Shown here piece by piece: positions 24,962 through 54,246 of a stretch of 60,102 nucleotides of DNA. The stretch's first letter is position 1; each line of letters opens with the position of its first letter. A program made the translations under genes and the position numbers. The notes beneath the pieces were generated by a model. It was given only the letters and a program-made list of their open reading frames with translations, searched no databases and was not told where the DNA came from. This DNA comes from a virus. The stretch lies in IMG/VR virus record IMGVR_UViG_3300022221_000008, positions 1 to 60,102 of that record. One strand, written 5' to 3'.

Positions 24962-25618
24962 TCATTCCTCCTTCTTGGCGGGCAATGGCCAGTCCTCGGG
25001 CTCGTCGTCGGACAGCCACAGAACAAGGCGGTCGTATTGCCACTCTTTTTCGGCACTTCCGGCCCAGGCGGCGGCCCAGGCGGCGGCCCCGGCGGCGGCC
25101 CAGGCGGCGGCCCAGGCGGCGGCCCTGGCGGCGGCCCTGGCGGCGGCCCAGGCGGCGGCCCCGGCGGCGGCCCTGGCGGCGGCCCAGGCGGCGGCCCCGG
25201 CGGCGGCCCTGGCGGCGGCCCCGGCGGCGTCCCCGGCGGCGGCCCCGGCGGCGGCGGCGGCGGCCCTGGCGGCGGCCCTGGCGGCGGCCCTGATCTCGCC
25301 GCGCGCAAAAGCCCTGGCGGCTTCGATGGCCGTTCGCGGCCATGGCGATGTTCCGGTCTTCTCGTAAATATGCAGAACGCGAGCGGCACAATCCGCCATC
25401 CATAACCGCAAGCGGCGCTCGACATCCTTGTTTTCAAGAGCGACGGTGGAAGCGACCCACACCAGATCGCCGAACGACACGCCCGCGGACTTAGCATCGG
25501 CAGCACTGTACGGCCCCTTCCAGCGGTAGGCGCGGAGCTTTTTGGTCACGTCCTTGAAAACACCTTCGCAAGGCTTGAGCCGCCGCAGTTCTGCGATGGT
25601 GAGTGTCGGTGCGGTCAT
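24962..25618 (-). CDS. Alanine-repeat protein
   Basis: A 218-residue protein in three parts. Residues 1-110 carry DLVWVASTVAL, LRLWMADCAARVLHIYE and AIEAARAFARGEI. Residues 111-187 are about nineteen four-residue repeats of AAxA where x is R, W, G or D. The end contains LVLWLSDDEPEDWPLP. The first and last parts are shared with the gene at 34377-34832, so the two are paralogues. A continuous amphipathic helix is the likely structure. The function is unknown. Confidence 0.65.
   Translation of the reverse strand: MTAPTLTIAELRRLKPCEGVFKDVTKKLRAYRWKGPYSAADAKSAGVSFGDLVWVASTVALENKDVERRLRLWMADCAARVLHIYEKTGTSPWPRTAIEAARAFARGEIRAAARAAARAAAAAAGAAAGDAAGAAARAAAGAAAWAAARAAAGAAAWAAARAAARAAAWAAAWAAAGAAAWAAAWAGSAEKEWQYDRLVLWLSDDEPEDWPLPAKKEE
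25062..25290. repeat. 12-bp GC-rich minisatellite inside a gene
   Basis: Tandem units of the form GGCGGCCCAGGC, varying at a few positions, fill this stretch and encode the AAxA repeat on the leftward strand. All frames are open here, so other frames are shadows. The copy number may vary between isolates or be wrong in the assembly. Confidence 0.85.
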
Positions 25619-29205: not shown

Positions 29206-29410
29206 CGGGGACGATATAGAGGAAACCGTTGTTTACTGGGCACAAAACGGCGTAACGGCGCAAGAGGTTTTGGTATCCATGGGCGCGCTGGATGTGCCTT
29301 GCTGGCGAGCGGTCATGGTGCGGATGATGCTGTGGAACAGCCGGCATTTGGAAAGCGAACTGGCCGGCATGACATGGAACGAGACGGAACGGGAATTGAC
29401 GGGACGATGA
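29198..29410 (+). CDS. Unknown 70-residue protein
   Basis: I use GTG 29198, which overlaps the previous stop and has TGTGGAAA upstream; a longer frame from 29105 is possible but lies mostly within the LexA-like gene. The product is helical with NGVTAQEVLVSMGALDVP and a tryptophan-rich centre. There is no family. Confidence 0.45.
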   Translation: MSSGDDIEETVVYWAQNGVTAQEVLVSMGALDVPCWRAVMVRMMLWNSRHLESELAGMTWNETERELTGR

Positions 29411-29419
29411 TGCTGCGGC

Positions 29420-29500
29420 GACGCTCTCGGGACAACATGCATCCCCGGCAGGTCTGGGGATGATGCGGAAATACCCAATACCGCATGGCTCGGGAGCGTC
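29420..29500 (+). ncRNA. Three-way-junction RNA element
   Basis: Three helices close on each other: GACGCTCTCG (29420-29429) with CGGGAGCGTC (29491-29500), CATCCCC (29440-29446) with GGGGATG (29456-29462), and ATGCGG (29463-29468) with CCGCAT (29481-29486). The region has no credible gene. It may be a leader, attenuator or small RNA ahead of the gene at 29621. Confidence 0.55.
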
Positions 29501-29503
29501 ACC

Positions 29504-29615
29504 GGAGTAGCATTGGAGGTGCGAGCTGCGGGATTCGCCACCCGGACACCGTGACCGAATAGGGCGTCATTGCGATGTAGGGAGCGGGCAGTGAGCACAG
29601 GAGTAGCATTGGAGG
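29504..29615. repeat. Two copies of a 16-bp repeat with a Shine-Dalgarno core
   Basis: GGAGTAGCATTGGAGG occurs at 29504-29519 and 29600-29615. The second copy supplies the ribosome-binding site of the gene at 29621. The first has no clear gene behind it, so the segment looks like a duplicated translation-start region, perhaps after loss of a gene. Confidence 0.55.
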
Positions 29616-29813: not shown

Positions 29814-30092
29814 ATGAAACCGGGCGTAATTTGCGTCATCACAAGGAAATCGGATGGCGTGGTTCTCGGCGTCGGGGCTGATTTCGATGCTGACCGCCCC
29901 GGCGGCTTCAGCCTGGAGCAAGCCCAAAACCGCCGCGCCAGAGAGCGCGCCAAGTCCGATTTTGTCAGAAAGCAATGCTCGGGCCTGATTTCCGATGGCC
30001 TTGACAGCTATCAGGTGGGGCAGATTGTGGATGCCCTAATCGGCCGAGACAAGATCGTTATTCAAACAGAGGCGGTCGGTGGTGAGGGCTAG
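29814..30092 (+). CDS. Unknown 92-residue protein, NUDIX-like start
   Basis: ATG 29814 follows GGAGGGTGAG. The first strands (VICVITRKSDGVVLGVGADF) recall the opening of NUDIX folds, but the NUDIX box is missing. The rest is helical. It is the last gene before the long non-coding region. Confidence 0.5.
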   Translation: MKPGVICVITRKSDGVVLGVGADFDADRPGGFSLEQAQNRRARERAKSDFVRKQCSGLISDGLDSYQVGQIVDALIGRDKIVIQTEAVGGEG

Positions 30093-30111
30093 ACAGCCCG
30101 ATGAGTCTGTG

Positions 30112-30235
30112 CCACAAAAGAGATGAGCCCAGCACCCTTAACGGGCCGGGCTCATACGCGGGTTGGTTTGGACGCCGGAACCCGCGCAGGCCATGAACAT
30201 AGGCCACAATCTCCTAAATATCAACCAGGTGTCCA
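30112..30235 (+). ncRNA. Pseudoknot motif, copy A
   Basis: ACAAAAGA is followed by P1 (ATGAGCCC 30123-30130 with 30148-30155), P2 (CGCGGGTT 30157-30164 with AACCCGCG 30179-30186), P3 (GGCC 30189-30192 with 30202-30205) and P4, in which TGGACGCC in the P2 loop (30169-30176) pairs with GGTGTCCA (30228-30235). P4 makes an H-type pseudoknot. ATCAACC precedes the last strand. Confidence 0.65.
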
Positions 30236-30839
30236 AGCGTTTGGTCCGCTCCGTGTGCGGGCTGTTCTGTGGAGACGTGCAACATGCGTAAGGAACCCTT
30301 GGGCGCCGTTGTGGCTCGAAAAGTTCTCTTGCAAGGCGCATGGGCCAACCCGAAAGGACGATGTTGGGTAGCGCCCAGCCTTGGCCCCAGTGCCAGAAGG
30401 CCAGCACGTTTCCACAGAGCAGCCCTAGCACTCAAGCGGGGGATTGGTGAAGGTGTGCAACATGCGTAGTGGACTCACAACCCTTGGTGCTGCGGCCCCA
30501 AGGCCACTGAACGATCCGCTCGCTTGCAAGGCGCATGTAGGCTGGCTGGTCGCTGGCTGGACCCACACCTTCACCAATCCTTTGCAAAAGCGATCACTGT
30601 GGCCCGCAGGATGGGCGTTCTGTGATGCGTAGCGGCGTGGAAAGCAGACACGCTTTCGAGCAAGGTAAGGGTGTGTTGTCAGGAGAGGCTGAGAGGAAGA
30701 CGCTTGTGACCCTGACGAACGGCGGGATAACCAAGGAACAACTGCCGTGCATTGTGGCCCTAAGCCGGAGTAGCGTCCGGCCTACGCATCACAGAGCGTC
30801 TATTGGAGGCCCCAGGGTTGACCTGTGAATGAGAATGGC

Positions 30840-30960
30840 CTACAAAAGAAAAGCCCCCGGATCGGTCGGGGGCGTCTACGCTGGATGATGGTTTGGCGGC
30901 CGAACCCAGCGCAGGAACGTCAATATAGACGAAACTCCCTGAAAATCAACCCGGCCGCCA
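30840..30960 (+). ncRNA. Pseudoknot motif, copy B
   Basis: It has the same order as copy A with different paired bases: ACAAAAGA, P1 (GCCCCCG 30853-30859 with 30867-30873), P2 (CGCTGG 30879-30884 with 30906-30911), P3 (CGTC 30918-30921 with GACG 30928-30931) and P4 (TGGCGGCC 30894-30901 with GGCCGCCA 30953-30960). ATCAACC is kept. The distance from the end of P2 to the start of the last strand is the same as in copy A. Confidence 0.65.
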
Positions 30961-31226
30961 CAGATAGCGTCTCTGTTGCGAGCCCATGCGCGGGACTTAA
31001 AGGCGGCCGGACCAAGACGGCCAGGCTCTTGACGCAAAACCCCCGAGAAAGGACCACGAATCCCGTGGCTTGTGCGGCGGTCGCCTACATGGCTGCCGCA
31101 TGGGGCTCCAGTTGGAACCGGCAGACGGGAACCGTGCCGAGGCCCAGGAAGCTCGCTGCCCGCCTGCGCCGCTTGAGGCACGATGTAGGTTGTATGCTTG
31201 TCCGGCTCCATACGTTGCATGCAAAT

Positions 31227-31259
31227 CCCCTTTGGCTGCGGCCAGGGGGGTTTTGTTTC
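31227..31259 (+). terminator. Terminator at the end of the structured RNA
   Basis: CCCCTTTGGC pairs with GCCAGGGGGG through ten pairs (two G-U) around a short loop and is followed by TTTTGTTTCT, a typical rho-independent terminator. Confidence 0.75.
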
Positions 31260-31288
31260 TATCCTCACCACCGTTGCATGGACTTGAG

Positions 31289-31498
31289 ATGCTACTGAAA
31301 GACGCAAACGAACTAATCACCCTGGCGAGAGACGCGATCACCGAAACCCTGAACGCTGTCAGGGAAGATGGGGTATGCAGGCTCTGCCAGGCAAAACAGG
31401 GTGTACAGCATTCGGCGACTTGCCCTGTCTGGAGTTTGACGCAATGGCGTGGTGAATTTTGGCGGCGGAATGAGCCTGAATTGAAGCTTGAACCGTAG
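31289..31498 (+). CDS. Small zinc-ribbon-like protein
   Basis: A 69-residue protein from ATG 31289. It begins with a helix (LKDANELITLARDAI) and then carries CRLCQAKQGVQHSATC, a CxxC with later His and Cys, likely binding zinc. It ends in a tryptophan- and glutamate-rich stretch. Similar proteins are frequent in phage early regions. Confidence 0.6.
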   Translation: MLLKDANELITLARDAITETLNAVREDGVCRLCQAKQGVQHSATCPVWSLTQWRGEFWRRNEPELKLEP

Positions 31499-31526: not shown

Positions 31527-31862
31527 ATGAAAGCGCGCCGCCACCACAACAACAAAGGTTGTCGCCAGATCAAACGCGGCAAGACGCGCGATCAGGTCAA
31601 GCGGATGGCTGAGAAGCTTGGGATTCCTTACGCGCCTGTAGTTCAACTGGCAGAACCGGACCCTCATAAGGTTCACGATCCAGGTTCGAATCCTGGCGGG
31701 CGCACCAGTTCTCTGGAGGAAAACAGTTGGTTGTGTGCCTCCTGCGGGACTGAATCCTCTCTTAAGTTTCGTTCTTGTGGCTGCCCAACGGATGTTTTGT
31801 ATAGGAACCAGGAAACTGCCCTGAAAATAGAGCGTGGATCAGAGGAGGGAAAAGATGTCTAA
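31527..31862 (+). CDS. ORF that reads through a tRNA gene
   Basis: GGAGGAAAGAG precedes ATG 31527. The first 35 residues are basic and look genuine (RQIKRGKTRDQVKRMAEKL). The frame then runs through the whole tRNA, giving the typical tRNA-derived residues VQLAEPDPHK, and continues to TAA 31862. A translated tRNA is not a plausible protein domain, so the real arrangement is probably a short gene truncated at its 3' end by tRNA insertion, with a separate cistron from 31731. Confidence 0.4.
   Translation: MKARRHHNNKGCRQIKRGKTRDQVKRMAEKLGIPYAPVVQLAEPDPHKVHDPGSNPGGRTSSLEENSWLCASCGTESSLKFRSCGCPTDVLYRNQETALKIERGSEEGKDV
31632..31707 (+). tRNA. tRNA-Met (CAU) with encoded CCA
   Basis: A 76-base cloverleaf: acceptor GCGCCTG with CGGGCGC (one G-U), D stem GTTC/GAAC, anticodon stem GGACC/GGTTC with loop CTCATAA giving anticodon CAT, 5-base variable loop, T stem CCAGG/CCTGG with loop TTCGAAT, discriminator A and encoded CCA. 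The CAU anticodon reads Met, or Ile AUA if modified to lysidine. Elongator Met is more likely than initiator because the acceptor's first pair is intact. Confidence 0.93.
31731..31862 (+). CDS. Possible zinc-knuckle microprotein after the tRNA
   Basis: An in-frame TTG at 31731 has CTGGAGGAAAA upstream and would give a 43-residue protein with CASCGTESSLKFRSCGC, a good zinc-knuckle pattern. Its stop overlaps the next ATG by eight bases. This is the alternative to the read-through frame. Confidence 0.45.
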   Translation: MCASCGTESSLKFRSCGCPTDVLYRNQETALKIERGSEEGKDV

Positions 31863-32010
31863 CAGCAGCTTTGATAAGTGTAGCTTTTTGGCCCAATTCT
31901 GTTGCTTTTTTGGGCTCCACTGTTGGGGGCCTTGGGGCAAGATTTATTTGGATATGTTCCAGAAGAAGCGTTGCGTTCGTTGTGGAAGATACAAAGAGAG
32001 GGCTCTTTGA
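31855..32010 (+). CDS. Cysteine-rich microprotein
   Basis: A 51-residue protein with the strong site AGAGGAGGGAAAAG before ATG 31855. It is rich in cysteine, phenylalanine and tryptophan and ends KKRCVRCGRYKERAL, a CxxC knuckle. Its stop overlaps the next start (TGATG). Confidence 0.5.
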   Translation: MSNSSFDKCSFLAQFCCFFGLHCWGPWGKIYLDMFQKKRCVRCGRYKERAL

Positions 32011-33659: not shown

Positions 33660-33667
33660 CTGTCCTC

Positions 33668-33748
33668 TCCTTCAGTAATCCACAGCCGCAACGGCCCTGG
33701 GATTGATCACTCAATAGTCAGGCCCTACCTGGGCCGGGTGGGGTTAGG
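33668..33748. repeat. 81-bp intergenic repeat, copy 1
   Basis: Identical to 34301-34381. Each copy lies between two leftward genes and holds, in leftward order, the hairpin GGCCCAGGTAGGGCC, the sequence TTGAGTGATCAATCCC, a GCCG-TTG-CGGC hairpin and the ribosome-binding site AAGGA. It works as a ready-made terminator plus leader unit. Confidence 0.8.
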
Positions 33749-34292: not shown

Positions 34293-34300
34293 AACCTTCC

Positions 34301-34381
34301 TCCTTCAGTAATCCACAGCCGCAACGGCCCTGGGATTGATCACTCAATAGTCAGGCCCTACCTGGGCCGGGTGGGGTTAGG
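34301..34381. repeat. 81-bp intergenic repeat, copy 2
   Basis: Identical to 33668-33748. It sits between the genes at 34377-34832 and 33744-34292. A shortened relative lies at 34847-34896 and another fragment at 33384-33412. Confidence 0.8.
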
Positions 34382-34832
34382 GCAGGGGCCAGTCTTTTAG
34401 TTCTGGAGTGGACAGGCGCGTGACTAGACGGTTGCGCTGCCAAGTCTGGCTTGCGGCTTTGGCTGTGGTTCCGGCTGCTTCCCAATCAGCGGCTCGCGCG
34501 GCGTCAAAGGCTGCGTTTTCTGCTTCCAGTGAGTGTCTGGTTGCCGCCCAAGCTGCTGCCCAGGCTTTTACCCAAGCGGCATAGCGGGTTGCGTCATCGA
34601 TTTCGCCGCGTGCGAAGGCGCGGGCTGCGGCGATTGCATTACGTGGGGCCGTGGAATTTTGCGCTGCTTCATAGATATGTAGCGTGTGTGCGGCACAATC
34701 GGCTCGCCAGAGCCGCAACTTCTGGTCAATGTCTTTTTCAAGGCGCGCTACCTCTGATGCTATCCACACTAGGTCGGAAAGGGGGGTATTGGCGTTGATT
34801 AGCGAAAGGATCATGCTTGTGTTGTTTGCCAT
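34377..34832 (-). CDS. Paralogue of the alanine-repeat protein
   Basis: A 151-residue protein sharing with 24962-25618 the blocks DLVWIASEVARLE, LRLWRADCAAHTLHIYE, AIAAARAFARGEI and the closing LVTRLSTPELKDWPLP. The repeat array is replaced by a short irregular part (AWVKAWAAAWAA and AAFDAARAADWEA). It shows what the ancestral family looks like before expansion of the AAxA array. The function is unknown. Confidence 0.62.
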   Translation of the reverse strand: MANNTSMILSLINANTPLSDLVWIASEVARLEKDIDQKLRLWRADCAAHTLHIYEAAQNSTAPRNAIAAARAFARGEIDDATRYAAWVKAWAAAWAATRHSLEAENAAFDAARAADWEAAGTTAKAASQTWQRNRLVTRLSTPELKDWPLP

Positions 34833-34846
34833 CGTTCAATCTCCTG

Positions 34847-34896
34847 TGTTGAGTAATCCACAGCAGGGCCGCCGCAACGGCCCTGGAATTGATCAC
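34847..34896. repeat. Degenerate copy of the intergenic repeat
   Basis: It keeps GTAATCCACAGC, ACGGCCCTGG and ATTGATCACTC from the 81-bp unit but has a stronger hairpin: CAGGGCCG (34864-34871) with CGGCCCTG (34878-34885), eight perfect pairs around CCGCAA. Confidence 0.6.
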
Positions 34897-35084
34897 TCGT
34901 GAACGATTATGCAGCACCCTGCGCCATCAGGATCGGCCCAGCCCTTCGTAAGGGCCAGATCGGCCGCTCTCTGAGCTTCGTCCTCGGTGCCGCCGCGGCC
35001 TAAAACGTCAAGCGCGGCATGCTCGGCGCGGGCTATGTCGATACTGTTCGGGCTGCCGTGGGTCACTTCGATCTCGATTTGCAT
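34893..35084 (-). CDS. Unknown 63-residue protein
   Basis: TAGGAGCAACGCC precedes its ATG. The product has strands at both ends (MQIEIEVTHG, GCCIIVHE) around two helices, a compact alpha/beta fold. There is no family. Confidence 0.5.
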   Translation of the reverse strand: MQIEIEVTHGSPNSIDIARAEHAALDVLGRGGTEDEAQRAADLALTKGWADPDGAGCCIIVHE

Positions 35085-44254: not shown

Positions 44255-44794
44255 ATGCCGGCCCGCCACATTTCGACCACCGACATTCCCAGCGACGTGC
44301 TGATTTCCCTGGCGCGCGATCCCGACCAGTTCGAGAAGGGCATCCGGCGCTGGCAGGAAGCCGAAACCACCGCCAAGCGGGAGCAAAGGCGCCTCGCCGA
44401 GGTCGAGAAGAAGGCCTTGACGGCAACCGCCGCCCTGGAGGCCCTCAAGGCCGCCCACGAGGAAAGGGTCGCCGAGCGCGAACGGGTCTTCGCGATCCGT
44501 CAGGAAGCCCTCGATCAGCGGGAAACCAAGATCAACCAGCATGCGGCCCGCGACACCGAGGCTCGCCAAGTCCTCAAGGCCGACCGTGAGGAACTGGAGA
44601 ACGCCACCAAACAGTTGCAAGAAGGCGAAAGGCGCCTGAGCGACCGCGAGGTGGAGCTAGATAACCGGGCCGAAAAATTGAAGGCGGACGAGATCGCCTT
44701 GGCGGCGGTCGAAACCTTGATGAAGGAGCGCGAAGCCCGTCACAAGGCCCAATGGGTCGAACTCCAGGAGCGACTCAAGGGCTTTGCTTGGTGA
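44255..44794 (+). CDS. Coiled-coil protein ahead of the sugar operon
   Basis: A 179-residue protein from ATG 44255. After MPARHISTTDIPSDVLISLA, residues 25-170 are a continuous charged helix (AEVEKKALTATAALEALKAA, ERRLSDREVELDN) with coiled-coil spacing. It has the look of a tail or scaffold-type helical protein. It overlaps the sugar nucleotidyltransferase start as GTGA, so the sugar operon is translationally linked to the virion genes. Confidence 0.6.
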   Translation: MPARHISTTDIPSDVLISLARDPDQFEKGIRRWQEAETTAKREQRRLAEVEKKALTATAALEALKAAHEERVAERERVFAIRQEALDQRETKINQHAARDTEARQVLKADREELENATKQLQEGERRLSDREVELDNRAEKLKADEIALAAVETLMKEREARHKAQWVELQERLKGFAW

Positions 44795-45477
44795 CACCGG
44801 TCCTGATTCAGGCGGGCGGCCGGGGGCTTCGGCTGCACCCGCTGACCGACCATAATCCCAAGCCGCTCCTGAAAGTTGGTGGTAAGCCGATCCTGGAAAC
44901 CATCATCGACGGCTTCGCGGCCCAGGGCTTCCGCCGCATCTGGCTTTCGGTCCACTACCGGGCCGACCTGATCAAGGGCCATTTCGGCGACGGCTCCGAG
45001 AAAGGCGTGAAGATCAAGTACCTGGAGGAAAAGTCCCCCCAGGGCACCGGCGGCGCGCTCAGATTGTTGCCGCGCTGGGACAAGCCCTTCATCGTTTCCA
45101 ACGCGGATGTCTTGACAAAAATCAACTATGGGCACCTAATGGAGGCACACGCGCGGGCCAATGTGCTGGCCACCGTGTGCGCCGGCCTCTACCAGCAACA
45201 GATCAAATATGGCGTCATTGATAGCGAGGATGGCCGTCTTTTGCGGGTGCGCGAGAAGCCAATCGAGAACTTCCAGGTCAACGCCGGCATCTATGTGCTC
45301 GAACCCGATGCCCGCGACTTCGCGCCCGAAGGCCCCTTCGACATGACCGACCTGATCGAACGCCTGCCCCAAGCGGGCGCCAGGGCGGGCGCGGCGGTCT
45401 ACCCCCTGACCGACTACTGGTGCGACATCGGCGGCTTCGAGGACTACGCCAGGGCCAATGCGGAGTGGAGCCATTGA
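44791..45477 (+). CDS. Sugar-1-phosphate nucleotidyltransferase (PtmE-like)
   Basis: A 228-residue protein starting at GTG 44791. LIQAGGRGLRLHPLTDHNPK followed by PKPLLKVGGKPILE is the N-terminal nucleotide-binding signature of NTP-transferases, and the later FIVSNADVLTKINY holds the metal-binding Asp. It would join a sugar-1-phosphate to a nucleotide. In the legionaminic pathway this step makes GDP-GlcN (PtmE). The usual N-terminal CBS domains of PtmE are absent, so this is the catalytic domain only. Sugar and nucleotide are inferred from the neighbours. Confidence 0.75.
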   Translation: MTPVLIQAGGRGLRLHPLTDHNPKPLLKVGGKPILETIIDGFAAQGFRRIWLSVHYRADLIKGHFGDGSEKGVKIKYLEEKSPQGTGGALRLLPRWDKPFIVSNADVLTKINYGHLMEAHARANVLATVCAGLYQQQIKYGVIDSEDGRLLRVREKPIENFQVNAGIYVLEPDARDFAPEGPFDMTDLIERLPQAGARAGAAVYPLTDYWCDIGGFEDYARANAEWSH

Positions 45478-46046
45478 GCGTTCTGGGCCTGATCCCCGCG
45501 AGGGGCGGTTCCAAGCGCATCCCGCGCAAGAACATCCGCCTTCTGGGCGAACACCCCTTGGTGCTCTGGACCATCTATCAGGCCAAGGAATCGGTCATGC
45601 TCGACGGCCTGGCGGTTTCGACCGAGGACCGGGAGATCGCCGATCTCTGCTGCGTTCATTGCGACGTGATCCGCCGCCCGCCAGAAATGGCCCACGATAC
45701 CGCCTCGTCCTATCCCCTGATGCTTCATGCGCTCGACCTCTGCGGCGGGGCCTACGAGTATCTCTGCCTCCTGCAGCCGACCAGCCCCTTCCGGGACGCC
45801 GACGATATCGACCAGTGCATCGCGGCCCTGAAGGTTTCGGGCGCCCCCGCCATGGCCTCCTTCACGCAAGGCGGTAAGGTGCCCAACGGCGCCATCTATG
45901 CCGCCCACACGTCCTGGCTAAGGGAGGGCGGGAACTTCGACGGCCCGGCGGTGGAGCCCTTCTGGATGCCGCCCGAAAGAAGTTTGGATATCGACACCGA
46001 GGACGACTGGAGCGAGGCCGAAACGGCCCTGATGGCAATGGCATGA
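45474..46046 (+). CDS. CMP-nonulosonate synthetase (NeuA/LegF-like)
   Basis: A 190-residue protein from TTG 45474, overlapping the previous stop. VLGLIPARGGSKRIPRKNI is the CTP-binding signature of acylneuraminate cytidylyltransferases; LLQPTSPFRDADDID is their second block. These enzymes attach CMP to a nine-carbon acidic sugar. About 40 residues shorter than cellular versions, mainly in the C-terminal half. It supplies the activated donor for transfer to a glycan. Confidence 0.8.
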   Translation: MSVLGLIPARGGSKRIPRKNIRLLGEHPLVLWTIYQAKESVMLDGLAVSTEDREIADLCCVHCDVIRRPPEMAHDTASSYPLMLHALDLCGGAYEYLCLLQPTSPFRDADDIDQCIAALKVSGAPAMASFTQGGKVPNGAIYAAHTSWLREGGNFDGPAVEPFWMPPERSLDIDTEDDWSEAETALMAMA

Positions 46047-46990
46047 ACCCTTTCCAGGACCGCTACGACGCCTGCAACGGCGGCACCAATGCATCGAAAT
46101 ATGCCGAATTGCCCGATTTTCCGTGCATTATCGACGTGGAATTGACCTCTTCGTGCAATTTCAGGTGCTTGATGTGTCCCACCGGCAACAGATCGCTAAA
46201 GCGTCCTGCGGTTCTCATGACGGACAAGACCTTGCTGGCGATTATCGACCAGTGTGTGGAGCACGATACGGCGCTGCGCTTTATCGGCTGGGGCGAGCCG
46301 ACGCTGCATCCCGTCCTGGTCCCGGCCTTGCGGCAGGCCAGGGGCCTTCTGACGCACATCAACACCAACGGCTCCAAGATCACGCCGGAATTCGCCTTTG
46401 ACCTCGTGGAGGCCGGACTTTCCTCGATCAAGTTCTCTTTCCAGGGCGTCGATGCGGAATCCTACGAGGAGATGCGGCAGATCAGGTTTTTCGAGGGCAT
46501 GCTGAAGGCCATCAAGGTCATGCGAAGCGCACGCGGCGACAGAGCCCTGCCCTACATCGCGGCCTCGACCTCCATCACCTACGAGACGCCCAAGATGGTC
46601 GAGGACTTCCGCGCCCGGCTCGGGCCGTTGGTCGATCGCCTGTCGATCGGTCACACGACCTTCGACTTCATGGACATGAGCGCCGTGCGGCTCAGGCCGG
46701 GACAAAGGGCCATGCTGGAGCGCCTCAAGGGCTTGTCGAGCGATGCCAAGCAGCACCCCAGTCCTTGCCCGGAGGTCTTCCAGAAGCTCTCCATCCAGGC
46801 CGACGGGTCGGTGGTGCTCTGCTGCAACGATTTCGATGGCACGGTCAATCTGGGAAACGTGAACGCCATCCCGCTTTCCGATCTGTGGCGCCATCCCAAG
46901 ATCGAGGCCTACCGGAAACGGCTGGTGAGGGATGATTACGACGCGCCGCTGTGCCGGGACTGCTACGACTATATGGACCTGACCGGATGA
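46043..46990 (+). CDS. Radical SAM/SPASM enzyme in the sugar operon
   Basis: A 315-residue protein. C38, C42 and C45 in [14 protein letters not shown] form the radical SAM cluster; WGEP at 83-86 is the SAM-binding motif. The C-terminal part has [12 protein letters not shown], and LCRDCYD, the cysteine layout of SPASM auxiliary clusters, and [13 protein letters not shown] is typical. SPASM enzymes modify peptides or sugars. Within this operon a role in sugar tailoring is likely. It overlaps both neighbours by four bases. Confidence 0.83.
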
Positions 46991-47634
46991 CCGCCCTGGC
47001 GGCTCAGTACCGGCTCAAGGTGCCGCTCGGGAAGCAAAATCTCGCCATCGACGTGGTGGTCAGCGAACTGACCACCGAGGCCGACCGGGCCGCCATCGCG
47101 GAAATAGCCCAGGGCTTCGAGACGGCGATCGATGTCGGCTGCTTTACCGGCGGGTCTTCCAGCGCCATCCTGTCGGGCGGGGCCTCACTGGTCTGCGTCG
47201 ATACCTTCCGGGGCACGGCGGGAGACTATACCGGCCGGGTGCCGGGCTGGATAGTCCTGCGTATTCTGGAGGCCCGGCTGGAACCTCACCGGGGGCGGTT
47301 TTCGGTCTTCATGGGCAGTAGCGACCAGGCCGCGAAGCTTCTCCGGCCAGCCGACTTCATCTTCATCGACGCCGCTCATGACTACAGGTCCGTGATGGCC
47401 GATATCGCCGGCTGGCTGCCCCTGGTGAAGCCGGGCGGTATTCTGGCGGGGCACGATTTCGACAAGGCCCTGCTCGACCGTCCGCGCGAAGACCTCACGC
47501 CATATCTGGACTACGAGTATTATCAGGGCTTGCATTACGGCGTCGTGGCTGCGGTGCGGGACAGCCTCGCATCCTTCCACTGCGCCGAAGACCCGGACAG
47601 CACGGTCTGGTGGACCGAAAAGGAGATGATATGA
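46987..47634 (+). CDS. Class I SAM-dependent methyltransferase
   Basis: A 215-residue protein. [16 protein letters not shown] is the glycine-rich SAM-binding loop, VCVDTFRG the acidic residue after strand 2, and [17 protein letters not shown] the motif for the metal-dependent Methyltransf_24 type. The C-terminal [10 protein letters not shown] completes the set. It may O-methylate the sugar or the product of the radical SAM enzyme. The target is inferred only from neighbours. Confidence 0.78.
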
Positions 47635-48848
47635 CCCCTCTTTGGAGTGCCGAAGTCGAGGCCCGTATCCGCCGGGAAGCCGTCAACCTCGACCCGCAGC
47701 GACCGCCCGAGACGGTCCAGATGTGCAAGCGCTGCGTCATGACCAACCAGCGCCCGAGGATCGTGTTCGACGAAGAGGGCGTCTGCTCGGCCTGCCGCTA
47801 TGCTGAACGGAAGAAGACCGAAATCGACTGGGCCGAGCGCGAACGGGAGTTGCGTGAGTTGCTCAACATGAATGTTGCCGGAGCGTACGATGTGATCGTT
47901 CCTTCGTCCGGTGGCAAGGACTCTTCCTTTGTGGCCAGCACTTTGAGGGATACTTACGGCCAGCACGTTCTCTGTGCCCGCTGGGCGCCCTTCATGACGA
48001 CTGAGATCGGTGAGCGCAATTGGCAGGCCCTTATTCATGCCGGATTTGACACGGTCACGGGCCAGCCCAACGGGCTTCTGCATAGAAAGCTCGCCCGGCT
48101 GGCTCTTGAGTTTGTGGGGGACCCTTTTGTACCTTTCATTTTTGGCCAACTCTGTTACCCGCTTCATGTTGCGGTGCAAAATGATGTCCGTTTAGTGTTT
48201 TTCGGAGAAAATGGCGAAACGCTCTATGGTGGTGACACCGCTGCGGAGAACAAGCCCTGCTGGGGTTCGGCCGATTGGGAGCGGGTTTATATGAAGGGGG
48301 CGGGTGTTGATAGAATTGTCCAAATCGGCTTGGACCTTGGCGCCATTGAGCCTGATGAAGTGAAGCGGGTTAGCCCATTTTATCGACTCCCTGAAATTGA
48401 TAATCCGCCGGAATTTCATTGGACAAGTTATTATTTGCCTTGGTTCCCACAGGAAAATTTCTACATTGCTGCGGAAAAAACAGGTTTTGAGCCGAATGAA
48501 GAACGATCTCAGGGCACGTACTCAAGATATGCATCGATTGACGACAAAATGGATAACGTTCACTATTTTTTCGGGTATTTGAAATTTGGCATTGGACGTT
48601 GCACATCAGATGCCGCTCATGAGATCAGAGACGGAGAGCTTACGAGGGAAGAGGGACTCTCTTTGGTGGCGAAATACGATGGTGAATATCCATCGCGCCA
48701 TTTGTCAGAGTGCCTTGATTATCTTGATATGGACAAAGAGCAATTTGGTCGTGTTGTTGAGCGTTTCGATATGGCTAGGAACGGCAAGGCGGGTTTGGGC
48801 AATGTGGCGCTCGGACCAGTTAGGCAAGGATTGGCAAGGCAGGCTTAA
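47631..48848 (+). CDS. N-acetyl sugar amidotransferase (WbpG/PseA-like)
   Basis: A 405-residue protein. Zinc-type cysteines C32, C35, C52 and C55 are followed by the PP-loop SGGKDSS at 93-99, which activates an acetamido group as an adenylate before amination to an acetamidino group. This family (TIGR03573-like) makes the amidino forms of legionaminic, pseudaminic and mannuronic sugars. Its ammonia normally comes from a HisH/HisF pair, and a HisF gene follows. The second half is visibly more AT-rich than the first. Confidence 0.85.
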
Positions 48849-49646
48849 GTGCTCGCCTTCAGATTAATAGCTAGGCTCGATATAAGAAACGAGTTCCTGA
48901 TCAAGACTCGGCAATGCGAGGGTGTCAGAAAGGTCGGCGACCCGGCAGAATATGCGGAGAGGTACGATGCGGCAGGAATCGATGAAATTATCTTCTTGGA
49001 TGTTGTTGCCTCTCTATATGGTCGCAATAGTCTTGCTGGCATTGTTGGCCATGTTGGAGAATCTGTGTTTGTCCCTCTCTCGTCTGGTGGCGGCATTGGT
49101 TCGATTGATGGTTCGCGCGCTCTGTTCCTCGCCGGAGCGGACAAAATTATACTCAATAGTGCGGCAGTGCATGACAACGGACTTCTCAGCAGACTTGCCA
49201 GAAAGTTCGGCTCCCAGGCGGTCGTTCTCCAACTCGACGCCAAGCGGCGGAACGGCTCATGGGAAGCCTATTGCGAGGGCGCAAGACAACCGACCGGACG
49301 GGACGCGATAGAATGGGCCAGGGAGGCGGTGGACCGGGGCGCGGGGGAAATCCTTGTCACGTCGATTGACCGGGAAGGCACGTCGAAGGGCTTCGATCTT
49401 GACCTCGTGCGGGCGGTATCGTCTGCGGTCACGGTCCCTGTGGTGGCGGCGGGCGGTTTCGGCCAGGCATCCGATGCGCTGGCCGCCCAACAAGCGGGTG
49501 CCTCCGGGGTAGCCATCGCGGGCGCCCTACACTATAATCGGGTCAAGCTCGACGAAATAAGAGCGGTCTTGGCCAAAGCTGGGGTGAATGTTCGATGCGG
49601 TGTTTCGTCACCGGTGCTTGCGGATTTATCGGCTCCCATCTCGTAG
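48849..49646 (+). CDS. hisF: HisF-like synthase subunit
   Basis: A 265-residue (beta/alpha)8 barrel starting GTG 48849. Asp11 (IARLDIRN) and Asp130 (LQLDAKRR) match the catalytic pair of HisF in identical positions; GGGI and AAGGFG are the phosphate-binding loops. With WbpG/PseA-type enzymes HisF acts as the ammonia-channel partner for HisH. No HisH gene is present in this genome. The first 350 bases are AT-rich, the rest GC-rich, so the gene looks like a recombinant. It overlaps the dehydratase gene by 52 bases. Confidence 0.83.
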   Translation: MLAFRLIARLDIRNEFLIKTRQCEGVRKVGDPAEYAERYDAAGIDEIIFLDVVASLYGRNSLAGIVGHVGESVFVPLSSGGGIGSIDGSRALFLAGADKIILNSAAVHDNGLLSRLARKFGSQAVVLQLDAKRRNGSWEAYCEGARQPTGRDAIEWAREAVDRGAGEILVTSIDREGTSKGFDLDLVRAVSSAVTVPVVAAGGFGQASDALAAQQAGASGVAIAGALHYNRVKLDEIRAVLAKAGVNVRCGVSSPVLADLSAPIS

Positions 49647-50497
49647 AGACGCTTGTGGCCGAGGGTCACGACGTAACCGGTCTGGCGCTCTACAATCCAA
49701 GTCAATCCTGGGGCTGGCTGGAGGGCATCGAGGCCCGCAAGGCCCACGGCGACGTGCGCGATGCCGAGCAGATGCGCCGCCTGATCAAGGGTCACGAGGC
49801 GGTCTTTCACCTCGCGGCCCAGATCGAAGTTCCCTACAGCTTCGTCGCCCCCCGTTCCTTCATCGACACCAACGTCACCGGCACGCTGAATGTCCTGGAA
49901 GCCTGCCGGGCCACTGGTGCGAAGCTGATCCACACCTCTTCCTCGGAGGTCTACGGCACCGCCGCCTACACGCCCCAGGACGAGGCTCATCCGCTTCAGG
50001 CGCAGTCGCCCTATGCGGCTTCGAAGATCGCCGCCGATGCCCTGGTGACCTCCTATCATCGCAGCTACGATCTGCCGGCGGTGATCCTGCGGCCCTTCAA
50101 CACCTACGGACCCCGCCAGTCCGAGCGGGCCGTCATTGCCAGCATCATCCTGCAGGACTTGCGCGACGGCGCCGTGACCCTGGGCGACCTGCGCCCCCAT
50201 CGGGACTTCCTCTATGTCGAGGACACCGTGCGGGCCTTCATGGCGGTCATGAAGCTGTCGGGCGGCGTCTACAATGCCGGCACGGGCATATCGATCAGCA
50301 TCAAGGACTTGGCGGCCAAGATCATCACCTATGCGGCCGCGCAGGGAGAGTACCGCCCTGAGAATGCCGAGGTCCATCTGTTGCGGGCTTCCTCGGCCAA
50401 GCTCTTCGCCGAAACTGGTTGGCGGCCCCGAGTTTCCCTGGATGAGGGTCTGAAACGCACAAAGGAGTGGTGGCATGATTCCGTTAGCCGTTCCTAA
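49595..50497 (+). CDS. NAD-dependent 4,6-dehydratase (LegB-like)
   Basis: A 300-residue short-chain dehydrogenase. GACGFIGSH binds NAD, SSSEVYG and Y140-x3-K144 are catalytic. The segment ALYNPSQSWGWLEG resembles LegB's NSFNSWGWLD, which separates legionaminic-type dehydratases from other sugar dehydratases. It would make the 4-keto-6-deoxy sugar, probably from GDP- or UDP-GlcNAc. It is the entry step of nonulosonate synthesis and is followed by the aminotransferase. Confidence 0.82.
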   Translation: MRCFVTGACGFIGSHLVETLVAEGHDVTGLALYNPSQSWGWLEGIEARKAHGDVRDAEQMRRLIKGHEAVFHLAAQIEVPYSFVAPRSFIDTNVTGTLNVLEACRATGAKLIHTSSSEVYGTAAYTPQDEAHPLQAQSPYAASKIAADALVTSYHRSYDLPAVILRPFNTYGPRQSERAVIASIILQDLRDGAVTLGDLRPHRDFLYVEDTVRAFMAVMKLSGGVYNAGTGISISIKDLAAKIITYAAAQGEYRPENAEVHLLRASSAKLFAETGWRPRVSLDEGLKRTKEWWHDSVSRS

Positions 50498-51323
50498 TCT
50501 GACCGGCAAGGAGGGCGAGTACGTGGCCGAGGCCATCGCGTCCGGCTGGGTCGGTCCCGAGGGGCCGTTCGTGGAGCGTTTCGAGGGAATGGTTCGTGAA
50601 GTATCGGGTCGGCGCTGGGCCATTGCGACAATTACGGGCAGCGCGGCCTTGCACGCCTCCGCAACGGCGCTGGGTTTCGCCGGTGACTGTGTGGTGGTGA
50701 TGAGGAAGTCTTTTCCTGCCGCCAGGAATGTATTTCGTTCCCTTGGGTGCGACGTTGTTTTTTCTGAAGGCGGGGAAAACCATGATATTGCGGCCTATTC
50801 TCCGGGCACCATGAAATGGCCTGTGCTTGTGGACGCCGCCCCAGCCATAGGAAACAAACCCATCGGAACTGTTGAATGCTACAGCTTTGCCGCCAATAAG
50901 ACCGTGACCTGTGGACATGGCGGGGCGGTTGTCGGCGACGATCCGAGCTTGGAGGGCCGGGTCACAATGCTGATCAACAATCGCACCGGCAAATACAACT
51001 ACCGCATGGCCAATATCAACGCCGCCATCGGCTGTGCCCAGATGGAACGGCTGGAGGAATTCCGGGAGATCAAACGCAATATCTGGCAGCGCTATGCCGA
51101 TGCTGGGCTGCCCATGATCGACCGTGGCCCGAGCCGCTGGATGTCCACTATTGAGCAGCCGAAAGTTTTTTTCATAGGCGGTTTTAGGCACCGTCTAGAG
51201 GGCGTAGGCGGTTTTAGGCACCGTCTAGAGGCCGATTGGGGAATCAGCCTCCCCTGTTCCACATCTCTCACCAGGGATGATCAGGACAAGGTGATCAAGG
51301 CTTGCGAAGAATCCTTGCGATAG
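50475..51323 (+). CDS. PLP-dependent sugar aminotransferase (LegC-like), compact
   Basis: A 282-residue protein of the DegT/DnrJ/EryC1 type. IPLAVPNLTGKEGEYVAEAI and GWVGPEGPFVERFE match the LegC N-terminus; D120 binds the PLP nitrogen and K142 (ANKTVTCGHGG) forms the Schiff base. Cellular enzymes have 370-400 residues. The loss lies in the central domain and the C-terminal domain. A 30-bp tandem duplication (51177-51236) repeats ten residues near the end. It would install the 4-amino group. Confidence 0.75.
   Translation: MIPLAVPNLTGKEGEYVAEAIASGWVGPEGPFVERFEGMVREVSGRRWAIATITGSAALHASATALGFAGDCVVVMRKSFPAARNVFRSLGCDVVFSEGGENHDIAAYSPGTMKWPVLVDAAPAIGNKPIGTVECYSFAANKTVTCGHGGAVVGDDPSLEGRVTMLINNRTGKYNYRMANINAAIGCAQMERLEEFREIKRNIWQRYADAGLPMIDRGPSRWMSTIEQPKVFFIGGFRHRLEGVGGFRHRLEADWGISLPCSTSLTRDDQDKVIKACEESLR
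51177..51236. repeat. 30-bp in-frame tandem duplication
   Basis: Bases 51177-51206 and 51207-51236 are near identical and encode GGFRHRLEGV and GGFRHRLEAD. It looks like a recent slippage event, keeping the aminotransferase frame open. Confidence 0.9.
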
Positions 51324-52225
51324 AGAGCGGGCGCCACGACGCCACGCCGCTGAAGCCGGTCGTGAGTGAACTGCGCCGCCAGGGCTGTCATGTCCTGTGC
51401 TACGACGTGAAAGCCGGCGCAATCGAGAATGCTTTCAAGAAGCCCTGGGATATCGTTCTGCTGCTGGGCGACCGCTGGGAATCCCTGGCCGTCGCGACTG
51501 TCGCGGTCGTGGCGAACGTCCCCATCGCGCACATCCATGGTGGAGAGGCGACGTTCGGTTCCCATGACAACCAGATCAGGGATGCGATCTCCAAGCTGGC
51601 CAGCATCCATTTCGTCGCCAACGACGCCTTCAAGTGCCGGCTCGTGCTGGGCCTGGGCGAGGATGGCTGGCGCGTCCACGTCACGGGGGCACCGGGCCTG
51701 GACAACCTGACCAACCTCCCGCCCCGGAGCCCGGAGGCGTATTTCGTCTGCACCTATCACCCTGCCACCCTGCAGGAGAACTCCGACCTGCCGGCCCTTC
51801 TCTCTGCTCTCGACCGCTTCCCCGACTACCAACAAATCTGGACGGGCGTAAACGATGACCCAGGAAGCAAGGAGATCGCCGCTTTACTGGCCGGCCGGGA
51901 TGTTCGGCTACTGTCTGACCGTGAGTACCATCTGCTGTGCCGCCATGCTGCTGCGGTGGTGGGCAATTCCTCCAGCGGCATCATCGAGGCTCCGACGCTC
52001 GGCGTGCCGACGGTGAATGTCGGAACGCGGCAAGAGGGCCGGCTCCAGGGGCCGTCGGTCTTTGATTGCGATGCGAAGTCGATCCACTATGCCCTTGTGC
52101 GGGCGATCAAATACGGCGGGCCTTATGAGAACCCCTATGGCGAACCGGGCGCTTCGGCCAAGATCGCCCGCGTTCTTTCGACAATCGACCTCGAGGGCAT
52201 ACAGGTGAAGCGATGGTCTGTGTAG
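51302..52225 (+). CDS. Hydrolysing sugar 2-epimerase (NeuC/LegG-like)
   Basis: A 307-residue protein beginning at TTG 51302. AHIHGGEATFGSHDNQIRD and VVGNSSSGIIEAP are the two hallmark blocks of UDP-GlcNAc 2-epimerases of the hydrolysing type; VLLLGDRWES is a third. The enzyme would release the NDP and invert C2 to give the 6-carbon sugar for condensation. About 65 residues shorter than NeuC. It overlaps the aminotransferase by 22 bases. Confidence 0.83.
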   Translation: MRRILAIESGRHDATPLKPVVSELRRQGCHVLCYDVKAGAIENAFKKPWDIVLLLGDRWESLAVATVAVVANVPIAHIHGGEATFGSHDNQIRDAISKLASIHFVANDAFKCRLVLGLGEDGWRVHVTGAPGLDNLTNLPPRSPEAYFVCTYHPATLQENSDLPALLSALDRFPDYQQIWTGVNDDPGSKEIAALLAGRDVRLLSDREYHLLCRHAAAVVGNSSSGIIEAPTLGVPTVNVGTRQEGRLQGPSVFDCDAKSIHYALVRAIKYGGPYENPYGEPGASAKIARVLSTIDLEGIQVKRWSV

Positions 52226-53013
52226 TGGCGGAAATCGGAATTAATCATCAAGGCTCCCTGAATCTAGCTCATACCCTAATTAATCATGCCGCCCAGGCGG
52301 GCGCGGACGCGGTGAAGTTTCAGCTCTACCGTCCCTTTCTCCTGTCGCCGCCTGGTCCCTGGCGGGACATGCTCAAGACGCTGGCCCTTCCGACGGGGCT
52401 CTATCCGGACCTCAAAGCCTATGCGGAAGCCCTCGATCTGGAATTCCTCTGCACGCCCTTCGATGTCATGTCCTTGGAATTCCTGGTCGATATGGGCGTG
52501 AAGCGGCTCAAGATTTCCTCCGGCGGGTTAAGGGATATGGCCCTTCTGGAGGCGGCTCGATCGAGCGGTTTGGACTTGATCCTCTCGACCGGCATGGCGA
52601 CCGTTTCCGACATCCGGGAGGCCATGCGCGCGCTCAACTGGCCCAAGGTCTTCATGCTGCAATGCACCAGTTGTTACCCGACGCGGCCCTCGGACGTTCA
52701 CCTGCGGGTCATGGACACCTACCGGCGGGAGTTCGACGCACTGCCGGGCCTGTCGGACCACACCACCGGTATCGCGGTGCCCATCGCGGCCACAGCTTTG
52801 GGCGCCAAAATGATCGAGAAGCACCTGACCCTGGACCGTGATGCGGAGGGGCCGGATCATCAAGCCTCCATCGAGCCGGCGCAGTTCAAGGCCATGGTCG
52901 AGGGCATCCGGGAAGCAGAACAGGCTTTGGGCTCGGATGAGAAGGCCCCGCTCGACTGCGAGGCGCCGGTGATGAAGATCAGAAATGAGAGGGAAAAATG
53001 GCGATCATTATAG
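52213..53013 (+). CDS. Nonulosonic acid synthase (NeuB/LegI-like) without SAF domain
   Basis: A 266-residue protein. VAEIGINHQGSLNLA and AGADAVKFQLY open the TIM barrel; LSTGMATVSDI and IEKHLTLDRDAEGPDHQAS carry the metal- and phosphoenolpyruvate-binding residues. The enzyme condenses a six-carbon sugar with PEP to a nine-carbon acid. Cellular NeuB has about 345 residues with a C-terminal antifreeze-like SAF domain that closes the active site of the dimer partner; that domain is absent here. Activity without it is uncertain. Confidence 0.83.
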   Translation: MVCVVAEIGINHQGSLNLAHTLINHAAQAGADAVKFQLYRPFLLSPPGPWRDMLKTLALPTGLYPDLKAYAEALDLEFLCTPFDVMSLEFLVDMGVKRLKISSGGLRDMALLEAARSSGLDLILSTGMATVSDIREAMRALNWPKVFMLQCTSCYPTRPSDVHLRVMDTYRREFDALPGLSDHTTGIAVPIAATALGAKMIEKHLTLDRDAEGPDHQASIEPAQFKAMVEGIREAEQALGSDEKAPLDCEAPVMKIRNEREKWRSL

Positions 53014-53480
53014 GAAATGGCGGGCACGCAAGGGCGCTTGCCCATCGATATTTCCCTGGTGAGAATGTGCGGATGCTTGGCCCCAATGAAGAAATACCAA
53101 TCGAGGGGGACTTAATAATTGGCATGGGGGACGTAAAAACAAGACGGGTAATCTTTAGACTTCTTGAGAGCAGAATCGCATATAATCAGCAGATTATGGC
53201 CGGCGTTCTTATCGGCCCGCATGTTCATTTAGGAAAGAACATTCTTATCAATACTGGCGCCCAGATTGACCATGATTGTGTTATTGGCGACCACTGTTCC
53301 ATCGCTCCCGGCGCCATTCTTTGCGGCGGCGTGACCCTTGGCGAGGGCTGCTTTATCGGGGCCGGCGCCATCATCGTGGAGAACGTGACCCTTGAGCCCA
53401 ATACCTTCATACCTGCCGGATCGCTGGTTGTTAAACAGGACGATATCCGCATGCCGCAGCGCGTGGTACAGAACGGTTGA
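52998..53480 (+). CDS. Sugar O/N-acetyltransferase (NeuD/PglD/LegH-like)
   Basis: A 160-residue protein. IIIGNGGHARAL at the start is the nucleotide-sugar-binding half; the rest is a left-handed beta-helix of hexapeptides (VLIGPHVHLGKNILINTGAQ, GDHCSIAPGAILCGGVTLGE). The family adds acetyl groups to amino sugars. It would acetylate the amino group made by the LegC-like enzyme. The N-terminal part is shorter than usual. The first 300 bases are AT-richer than the flanks. Confidence 0.78.
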   Translation: MAIIIGNGGHARALAHRYFPGENVRMLGPNEEIPIEGDLIIGMGDVKTRRVIFRLLESRIAYNQQIMAGVLIGPHVHLGKNILINTGAQIDHDCVIGDHCSIAPGAILCGGVTLGEGCFIGAGAIIVENVTLEPNTFIPAGSLVVKQDDIRMPQRVVQNG

Positions 53481-54246
53481 GCCGCTTCTTCTCTGGCGGG
53501 CTCGTCTGAATTGCGGGCCGGCCATTCAAGACCGCAGCCCCCTGATTACGGTCTATATCCCGACATATAATCGGGAGGAACTTCTGATGACGAGGGCGCT
53601 GCCCAGCGTTCTCAAGCAGACCTATGGAAACATAGAAATCATTGTTGCTGCCCATGGCAGCAGCGAAGAGAACATAAGAGCCTTGGCTCGTGCAAGCGTC
53701 GAAGTGTATTTTGCCGAGCGTGACTTCGTTCCTCTTTGTGTGCCTCGTTATAGCGCCTATCCACCGACGGCGGAGAACCACTGGCTCGCCGGCCCTGTCG
53801 CGCCGGCCAATGCCGCGCTCAGGCTCGCCAAGGGAGACTGGATTGCAAGGATCGACGACGATGATACCTGGACCCCGGACCGCCTGGAGAAGCTTCTGTG
53901 CTTCGCTCAGGCGAACGATTTCGAGTTCGTATCGGCTGCGCACGAGACGCACGAGGGCAAGGTTGCTCCCTACGACCTGATGGGAACGAAGATCGGCGGC
54001 ACGCAGACCTGGCTTTACCGCTCCTATTTGAGGTTCTTCCGCTACAATCCCGACTGCTGGCGCAAGACTTGGCACCGGGTCAACGACACCGATCTACAAC
54101 ATAGGATGTGGCGTGCCGGCGTCCGCATGGGATATCTAGACGAAGTGGTGGCAAAAGTGTTACCAAGGCCCGGCGAAAACGCCGTGGGCTTAAGAGCCTA
54201 TCGGGAAGACCGGGCGAACAAGGAACGCCAAATGGCCTTCGATTAG
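53428..54246 (+). CDS. Family 2 glycosyltransferase
   Basis: A 272-residue protein. LITVYIPTYNREELLMTRAL opens the GT-A fold; WIARIDDDDTWTPDRLEKL has the DxD metal-binding motif; HETHEGKVAPYDLMG and DCWRKTWHRVNDTDL follow. No ATG or GTG in frame lies before the conserved part. TTG at 53428 or 53392 inside the acetyltransferase gene are the only choices, so it may rely on a weak start or on translational coupling. Donor and acceptor are unknown; the CMP-sugar made here is not a normal GT2 donor. Confidence 0.72.
   Translation: MLNRTISACRSAWYRTVEPLLLWRARLNCGPAIQDRSPLITVYIPTYNREELLMTRALPSVLKQTYGNIEIIVAAHGSSEENIRALARASVEVYFAERDFVPLCVPRYSAYPPTAENHWLAGPVAPANAALRLAKGDWIARIDDDDTWTPDRLEKLLCFAQANDFEFVSAAHETHEGKVAPYDLMGTKIGGTQTWLYRSYLRFFRYNPDCWRKTWHRVNDTDLQHRMWRAGVRMGYLDEVVAKVLPRPGENAVGLRAYREDRANKERQMAFD

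Follow-up and report, generated by a model that had tools for sequence, protein, structure and literature searches.

Tandem plus-strand RNA domains flanked by predicted minus-strand sRNA genes in the early region of a phage

Closest described systems and the setting of the locus

GOLLD and ROOL are large structured RNAs encoded by phages, often near tRNA genes that include Met-tRNA (PMC12286853). In repABC plasmids, a terminator forms in the leader when the ctRNA pairs with it (PMC3155836). In the I-complex plasmids the loop of an antisense RNA (RNAI or Inc RNA) is directed against a target loop that is able to pair with a downstream complement. UUGGCG is named for the Inc RNA target of ColIb-P9 in a title cited in PMC10724649.

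The locus compared with these systems here lies in IMGVR_UViG_3300022221_000008, an IMG/VR phage record of 60,102 bp, all of which was analysed (the window). The phage genes in the window include those for tail, terminase, capsid, RusA-like, DNA-clamp and replication-initiator-like proteins. A non-coding interval (30093–31288) separates a gene that ends at 30092 from another that starts near 31289. Several ORFs of 60–157 codons are found in this interval; none of them scores like the phage's own genes and none has a Pfam match, which agrees with the preliminary description of a region without a credible gene. The terminator and the nearby tRNA reported in that description were also recovered: the promoter and terminator scan places an intrinsic terminator at 31227–31258 on the plus strand, and an intact tRNA-Met (CAU) is the downstream neighbour (31632–31707, plus strand). 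The gene with the replication-initiator-like match starts at 31902.

At the gathering threshold cmscan returned only the tRNA, and relaxed thresholds added nothing besides sub-threshold noise; hence the earlier statement that no named class could be recognised holds for Rfam, the tRNA apart. The Infernal search proposed at that time gave no match at E ≤ 10 in the record with the GOLLD model (RF02032), for which the controls matched only below the cut-off, and none at E ≤ 10 with the ROOL model (RF03087), for which the search had no matching positive control. The locus is similar to GOLLD in being a large structured phage RNA with a tRNA-Met nearby; however, GOLLD has one conserved 3′ domain, whereas here the domains are repeated in tandem. 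The likeness to ROOL lies in the size of the core (∼0.55–0.6 kb) and in the phage and tRNA setting, but the domains are separate here. Phage genes and the tRNA-Met at 31632 do place the locus in the phage-encoded, tRNA-proximal position described for ROOL, a position that is not specific to ROOL. Thus the early-region, tRNA-Met setting resembles that of GOLLD and ROOL, but setting is not membership.

Two other kinds of RNA were considered and set aside. No TROVE-domain match that would point to a YrlA or Ro60-associated Y RNA was found in the window, and a 20.8-bit hit of the covariance model built from the duplicated module (R1, described below) in L242, a phage Ro60/Y-RNA locus, was near chance level. 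An intron-split tRNA was looked for in the window and not found. As an observation in its own right, the stretch at ∼28.4–30 kb of phage L253 (IMGVR_UViG_3300043411_002436; L242 1501–3074) combines a TROVE (Ro60) gene (Pfam E 1.4e-36) with tRNA-like repeats and with an adjacent YrlA-like Y RNA match that, at 48.9 bits, falls short of the gathering score.

Three tandem domains on the plus strand

At 30259–30804 on the plus strand three long-range helices follow directly on one another, and no others in the 60-kb record are as strong. Domain A1 (30259–30425) is closed by a 22-bp stem (30259–30280/30404–30425) and its head has the arm CATGCGT/GCGCATG (30283–30289/30336–30342) and a second arm. 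Domain A2 (30436–30585) has a 22-bp stem (30436–30457/30564–30585) and the same head motif as A1 (30461–30467/30531–30537), and domain A3 (30610–30804) has a stem of 23 bp (30610–30632/30782–30804). Each domain folds on its own as a long stem closing a branched head, and not one of the 67 stem pairs is a mismatch. The helix scores are 22.4–23.4 and the remainder of the plus strand across 60 kb does not exceed 17.0. When 30093–31290 was subjected to 400 dinucleotide shuffles, the best helix reached 20.0 as against 23.4 observed, and the third-ranked helix reached at most 12.6 as against 22.4. The helices between distant segments that had been described earlier are therefore present, as stems of 22, 22 and 23 bp; the 17-pair helix listed among them is real, but is only the Watson–Crick core of the 22-bp A2 stem.

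Nine of the 67 pairs are G-U when read on the plus strand and none is A-C. That all non-Watson–Crick pairs are G-U on one strand indicates that the plus strand is the RNA, and makes a palindrome acting at the DNA level unlikely. A1–A3 alone (30240–30825) fold with z = −7.8 on the plus strand and −4.2 on the minus strand. The preliminary description of a large structured non-coding RNA in a phage early region is upheld in this respect. Its extent is another matter: the folding energy of 30112–31259 has z = −8.2, but the structure is unevenly spread. The first part of each half is one copy of a module that is present twice and favours the minus strand, and in the last 0.3 kb (30960–31259; z = −0.9) folding does not surpass that of shuffled sequence. 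Nothing indicates that this last part, which includes a non-coding stretch without unusual structure (30961–31226, plus strand) between the second predicted sRNA gene and the terminator, belongs to the structured core. Of the ‘giant’ 1.1-kb RNA, then, a structured plus-strand core of ∼0.55 kb stands. A single GOLLD- or ROOL-like molecule of 1.1 kb is not supported, as the core consists of three self-contained tandem domains and the flanks read better as minus-strand sRNA genes. The first reading overstated the extent of the RNA and overlooked its minus-strand component.

The tandem relationship of the domains is apparent from shared sequence, which bears out the internally repeated modules reported before. 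The repeat GTGCAACATGCGTA occurs at 30277–30290 and 30455–30468, and CTTGCAAGGCGCATG, which includes the palindrome CTTGCAAG, at 30328–30342 and 30523–30537, all on the plus strand; 22-nt and 18-nt repeats occupy corresponding places in A1 and A2. In the register set by the repeats, 9 of 21 stem pairs are the same in A1 and A2, another 9 have changed at both bases and 3 at one base only, and no pair is lost. Since two perfect helices would be unbroken in any register, what gives this comparison its weight is the shared sequence by which the register is fixed. A3 has GTTCTGTG/CACAGAGC in common with A1. In A2 the arm CATGCGT/GCGCATG belongs to the predicted optimal fold; in A1 it lies 3 kcal/mol above the minimum free energy.

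A possible fourth, diverged domain, D0 (29402–29520, plus strand), stands alone 0.8 kb upstream of the array. It has a long interrupted stem and folds with z = −4.6 on the plus strand and −2.4 on the minus strand; the head arm is absent from its predicted optimal fold, and it contains CAACATGC...CGCATG at a spacing similar to that of the A1/A2 motif pair. This motif pair is found three times in the window, always on the plus strand and in a span of 1.1 kb, while 3.17 Mb of other loci, read on both strands, contain it twice; the pattern was defined after the copies had been seen, so D0 is only a possible relative.

A duplicated module and its predicted minus-strand sRNAs

The segments 30101–30236 and 30829–30960 are two copies of one module, which reads best as a predicted sRNA gene on the minus strand. 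From the promoter scan, the minus-strand fold and the sequence, the sRNA-A gene would extend over 30110–30224, with a predicted promoter (−35 TTGATA at 30224, a 17-nt spacer and −10 TATGTT ending at 30196) and a predicted transcript from ∼30189 to 30110. This transcript would contain the hairpin CGCGGGTT/AACCCGCG and a terminator stem (30155–30123) followed by CTCTTTTGT. The sRNA-B gene (30843–30949, minus strand), predicted from the promoter and terminator scan and the minus-strand fold, has the same layout: −35 TTGATT at 30949, a 16-nt spacer, −10 TATATT ending at 30922, and a putative transcript from ∼30915 to 30843 with the hairpin CGCTGG/CCAGCG and a terminator stem (30873–30853) followed by TTTTCTTTTG.

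These are the sole two promoter-like sites in the 2.5 kb scanned, both on the minus strand and at the equivalent place in the two copies. As a count this is weak alone (two matches against 0.7 expected), and the two copies are not independent. Both −10 regions carry CTATRT, which is close to the −10 sequence CTATAT of S. meliloti (PMC2245857). The promoters are followed on the same strand by the hairpin and the U-tailed stem, which in copy B is a formal intrinsic terminator, and the A-rich sequence ACAAAAGARA conserved on the plus strand is the U-tail on the minus strand. The stem at 30123–30155 has a single non-canonical pair, A-C on the plus strand and G-U on the minus strand. Moreover, folding is better on the minus strand in both module copies, with z = −3.4 on the minus and −0.9 on the plus strand for sRNA-B. 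A leader peptide shared by the two modules was rejected, as by inspection most of the differences would be non-synonymous. The same 2.5-kb promoter scan found no plus-strand promoter near the array, which would consequently depend on read-through.

The plus strand opposite each predicted sRNA has a hairpin whose loop has a possible partner ∼50 nt downstream. Opposite sRNA-A (30157–30235) the loop TGGACGCC (30169–30176) can pair with GGTGTCCA (30228–30235), and opposite sRNA-B (30878–30960) the loop TGGCGGCC (30894–30901) can pair with GGCCGCCA (30953–30960). The complementarity amounts to eight of eight pairs in each copy; between the copies, two pairs have changed on both sides and one on one side, and none is broken. 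By construction the plus-strand loop is also complementary to the sRNA loop, so that the target loop matches both an antisense loop and a downstream site, as in an antisense-controlled pseudoknot.

This geometry is, by analogy, that of antisense control over a pseudoknot in the I-complex plasmids, and UUGGCG is present in loop B. The locus differs from those plasmids in its phage setting, in having two diverged copies and in having no initiator gene directly after the pseudoknot: no credible ORF follows within 0.3 kb, and the I-complex arrangement of a pseudoknot directly upstream of the ribosome binding site of the initiator is not found here. The repABC ctRNA is comparable as a short RNA, here predicted on the minus strand, that has a hairpin, ends in a U-tailed terminator and lies next to a plus-strand transcript with strong folding. 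However, the match to ctRNA_p42d (RF00489) scores 20.9 bits against a threshold of 50 and covers only the terminator stem, and no repC-like gene was identified. Membership of the I-complex or repABC groups is not claimed.

Relatives of the locus were sought by several routes. Phages and plasmids were searched with the region by BLAST and gave nothing significant, and pattern scans of IMG/VR with the repeats and the duplicated module gave chance hits only, those to the relaxed repeat pattern lying inside genes. A covariance model (R1) was built from the duplicated module only, excluding A1–A3, and scored its own two source sequences at 100–109 bits; a second model was dropped because the 3′ halves were misaligned in the whole-domain multiple alignment. 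R1, for which there was no outside positive control, found nothing convincing in ∼1,100 alphaproteobacterial genomes (385 Alphaproteobacteria and 397 and 317 genomes of two orders), in 46 genomes carrying related terminases, or in ∼130 related phage records and loci (42 terminase-related viral records, 8 phage records and 80 clamp-related viral loci). Its best hit, at 32 bits, lies inside an apparent histidine kinase gene and was rejected. A scan for long helices in 2.2 Mb of related loci showed no comparable run of three tandem domains. As the collection of homologues proposed in the preliminary description thus yielded none, covariation is seen only between copies inside one molecule. With no family match and no detectable relatives, this looks like a real RNA, so far of one genome.

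Prophages with BPP-1-type terminases (L212, L214, L219, L220, L221, L224, L226 and L227) have near-perfect hairpins ∼0.9 kb upstream of terL. Their arms (∼20–30 bp) and loop (∼60–75 nt) are in a similar place across the prophages; the arm sequences differ between phages and often consist of short tandem units.

Possible function of the locus

The reading that we favour, tentatively and at somewhat less than an even chance, is that the early transcript carries stem-flanked RNA modules in tandem, which RNase III would cut and antisense sRNAs would modulate. The plus strand of 30259–30804 would form three related RNA domains on the early transcript of the phage. RNase III is expected to act on uninterrupted helices of about two turns, so the heads would likely be cut out of this transcript; they might then persist as separate stable RNAs and bind a common partner, either protein or RNA. 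At either end of the array a minus-strand gene would make an RNA of ∼75 nt, the hairpin loop of which may pair with the plus-strand hairpin loop opposite, which could otherwise close a pseudoknot. Because the sRNA loop is complementary to the pseudoknot-forming loop, the sRNAs would tune the folding, continuation or processing of the plus-strand transcript.

A cis-acting leader, in which the plus-strand structures and the two antisense sRNAs act together as an attenuator for the early genes from 31289 onwards, is rather unlikely. It can be likened to plasmid copy control, since the downstream genes include the replication-initiator-like gene, the predicted sRNA loops are complementary to a plus-strand hairpin with an alternative pseudoknot, and a plus-strand terminator precedes the gene at 31289; UUGGCG in loop B, as named for the ColIb-P9 target, and the terminator formation induced by repABC ctRNA lend the idea further support. 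However, the initiator-like gene is 0.9–1.7 kb downstream, beyond the terminator and the tRNA, the ctRNA_p42d hit is sub-threshold and limited to the terminator, and an attenuator does not need three long tandem stems.

We consider it rather unlikely that a single large ornate RNA of ∼0.55–1.1 kb works as a whole, for example as a GOLLD- or ROOL-like cage held by loop contacts. Its size, phage setting, tRNA-Met and strong structure match what is described for GOLLD and ROOL (PMC12286853), and the palindromic CTTGCAAG in the A1 and A2 heads could make such contacts. Against this, neither model matched, the last 0.3 kb shows no unusual structure, the repeats are self-contained rather than one interwoven fold, and there is no excess of 8-nt palindromes (4 against an expected 5.3), which counts against assembly driven by palindromes. 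Excision of small RNAs accounts for tandem self-contained domains and a possible outlying copy better than a single interwoven particle does.

A replication origin or other DNA-level element would suit a site with replication genes around it, and origins typically contain inverted repeats, but it is highly improbable: DNA palindromes leave the nine-to-zero G-U bias unexplained, and there is neither an iteron array nor an AT-rich stretch (GC 0.57–0.65). A diverged or decayed coding region is barely credible despite the several ORFs, as none has a phage-gene-like score or a family match and decay would not leave perfect long helices.

The favoured reading of RNase III-released modules could be extended to a new kind of phage RNA locus, in which a duplicated pair of antisense sRNAs, diverged in specificity, competes with target pseudoknots and so checks the released tandem modules; we regard this as possible but doubtful. 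If expressed, the locus would represent a phage RNA outside Rfam that is modular, unlike GOLLD and ROOL, and would bring plasmid-style antisense control against a pseudoknot into a phage early operon. Its modularity would make function testable, as single domains can be made, deleted or pulled down. The strand analysis also carries a warning: when a strongly folded stretch is taken for a single giant RNA, small genes on the opposite strand can go unnoticed.

Several features elsewhere in the window are of separate interest. An 82-bp repeat occurs with 100% identity at 33667–33748 and 34300–34381, with a shorter third copy at 34871–34898; each copy is just upstream of a minus-strand ORF, and the repeat is a probable shared promoter or leader cassette. 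Two minus-strand genes, at 24962–25618 and 34377–34832, match an Imm-5-like immunity family, the second below the cut-off. Between the terminase small-subunit (36217) and large-subunit (55696) genes, a sugar-modification cluster (44752–54246) comprises genes for nucleotidyl/cytidylyl transferases, radical SAM/SPASM proteins, UDP-GlcNAc 2-epimerase, NeuB and a glycosyltransferase.
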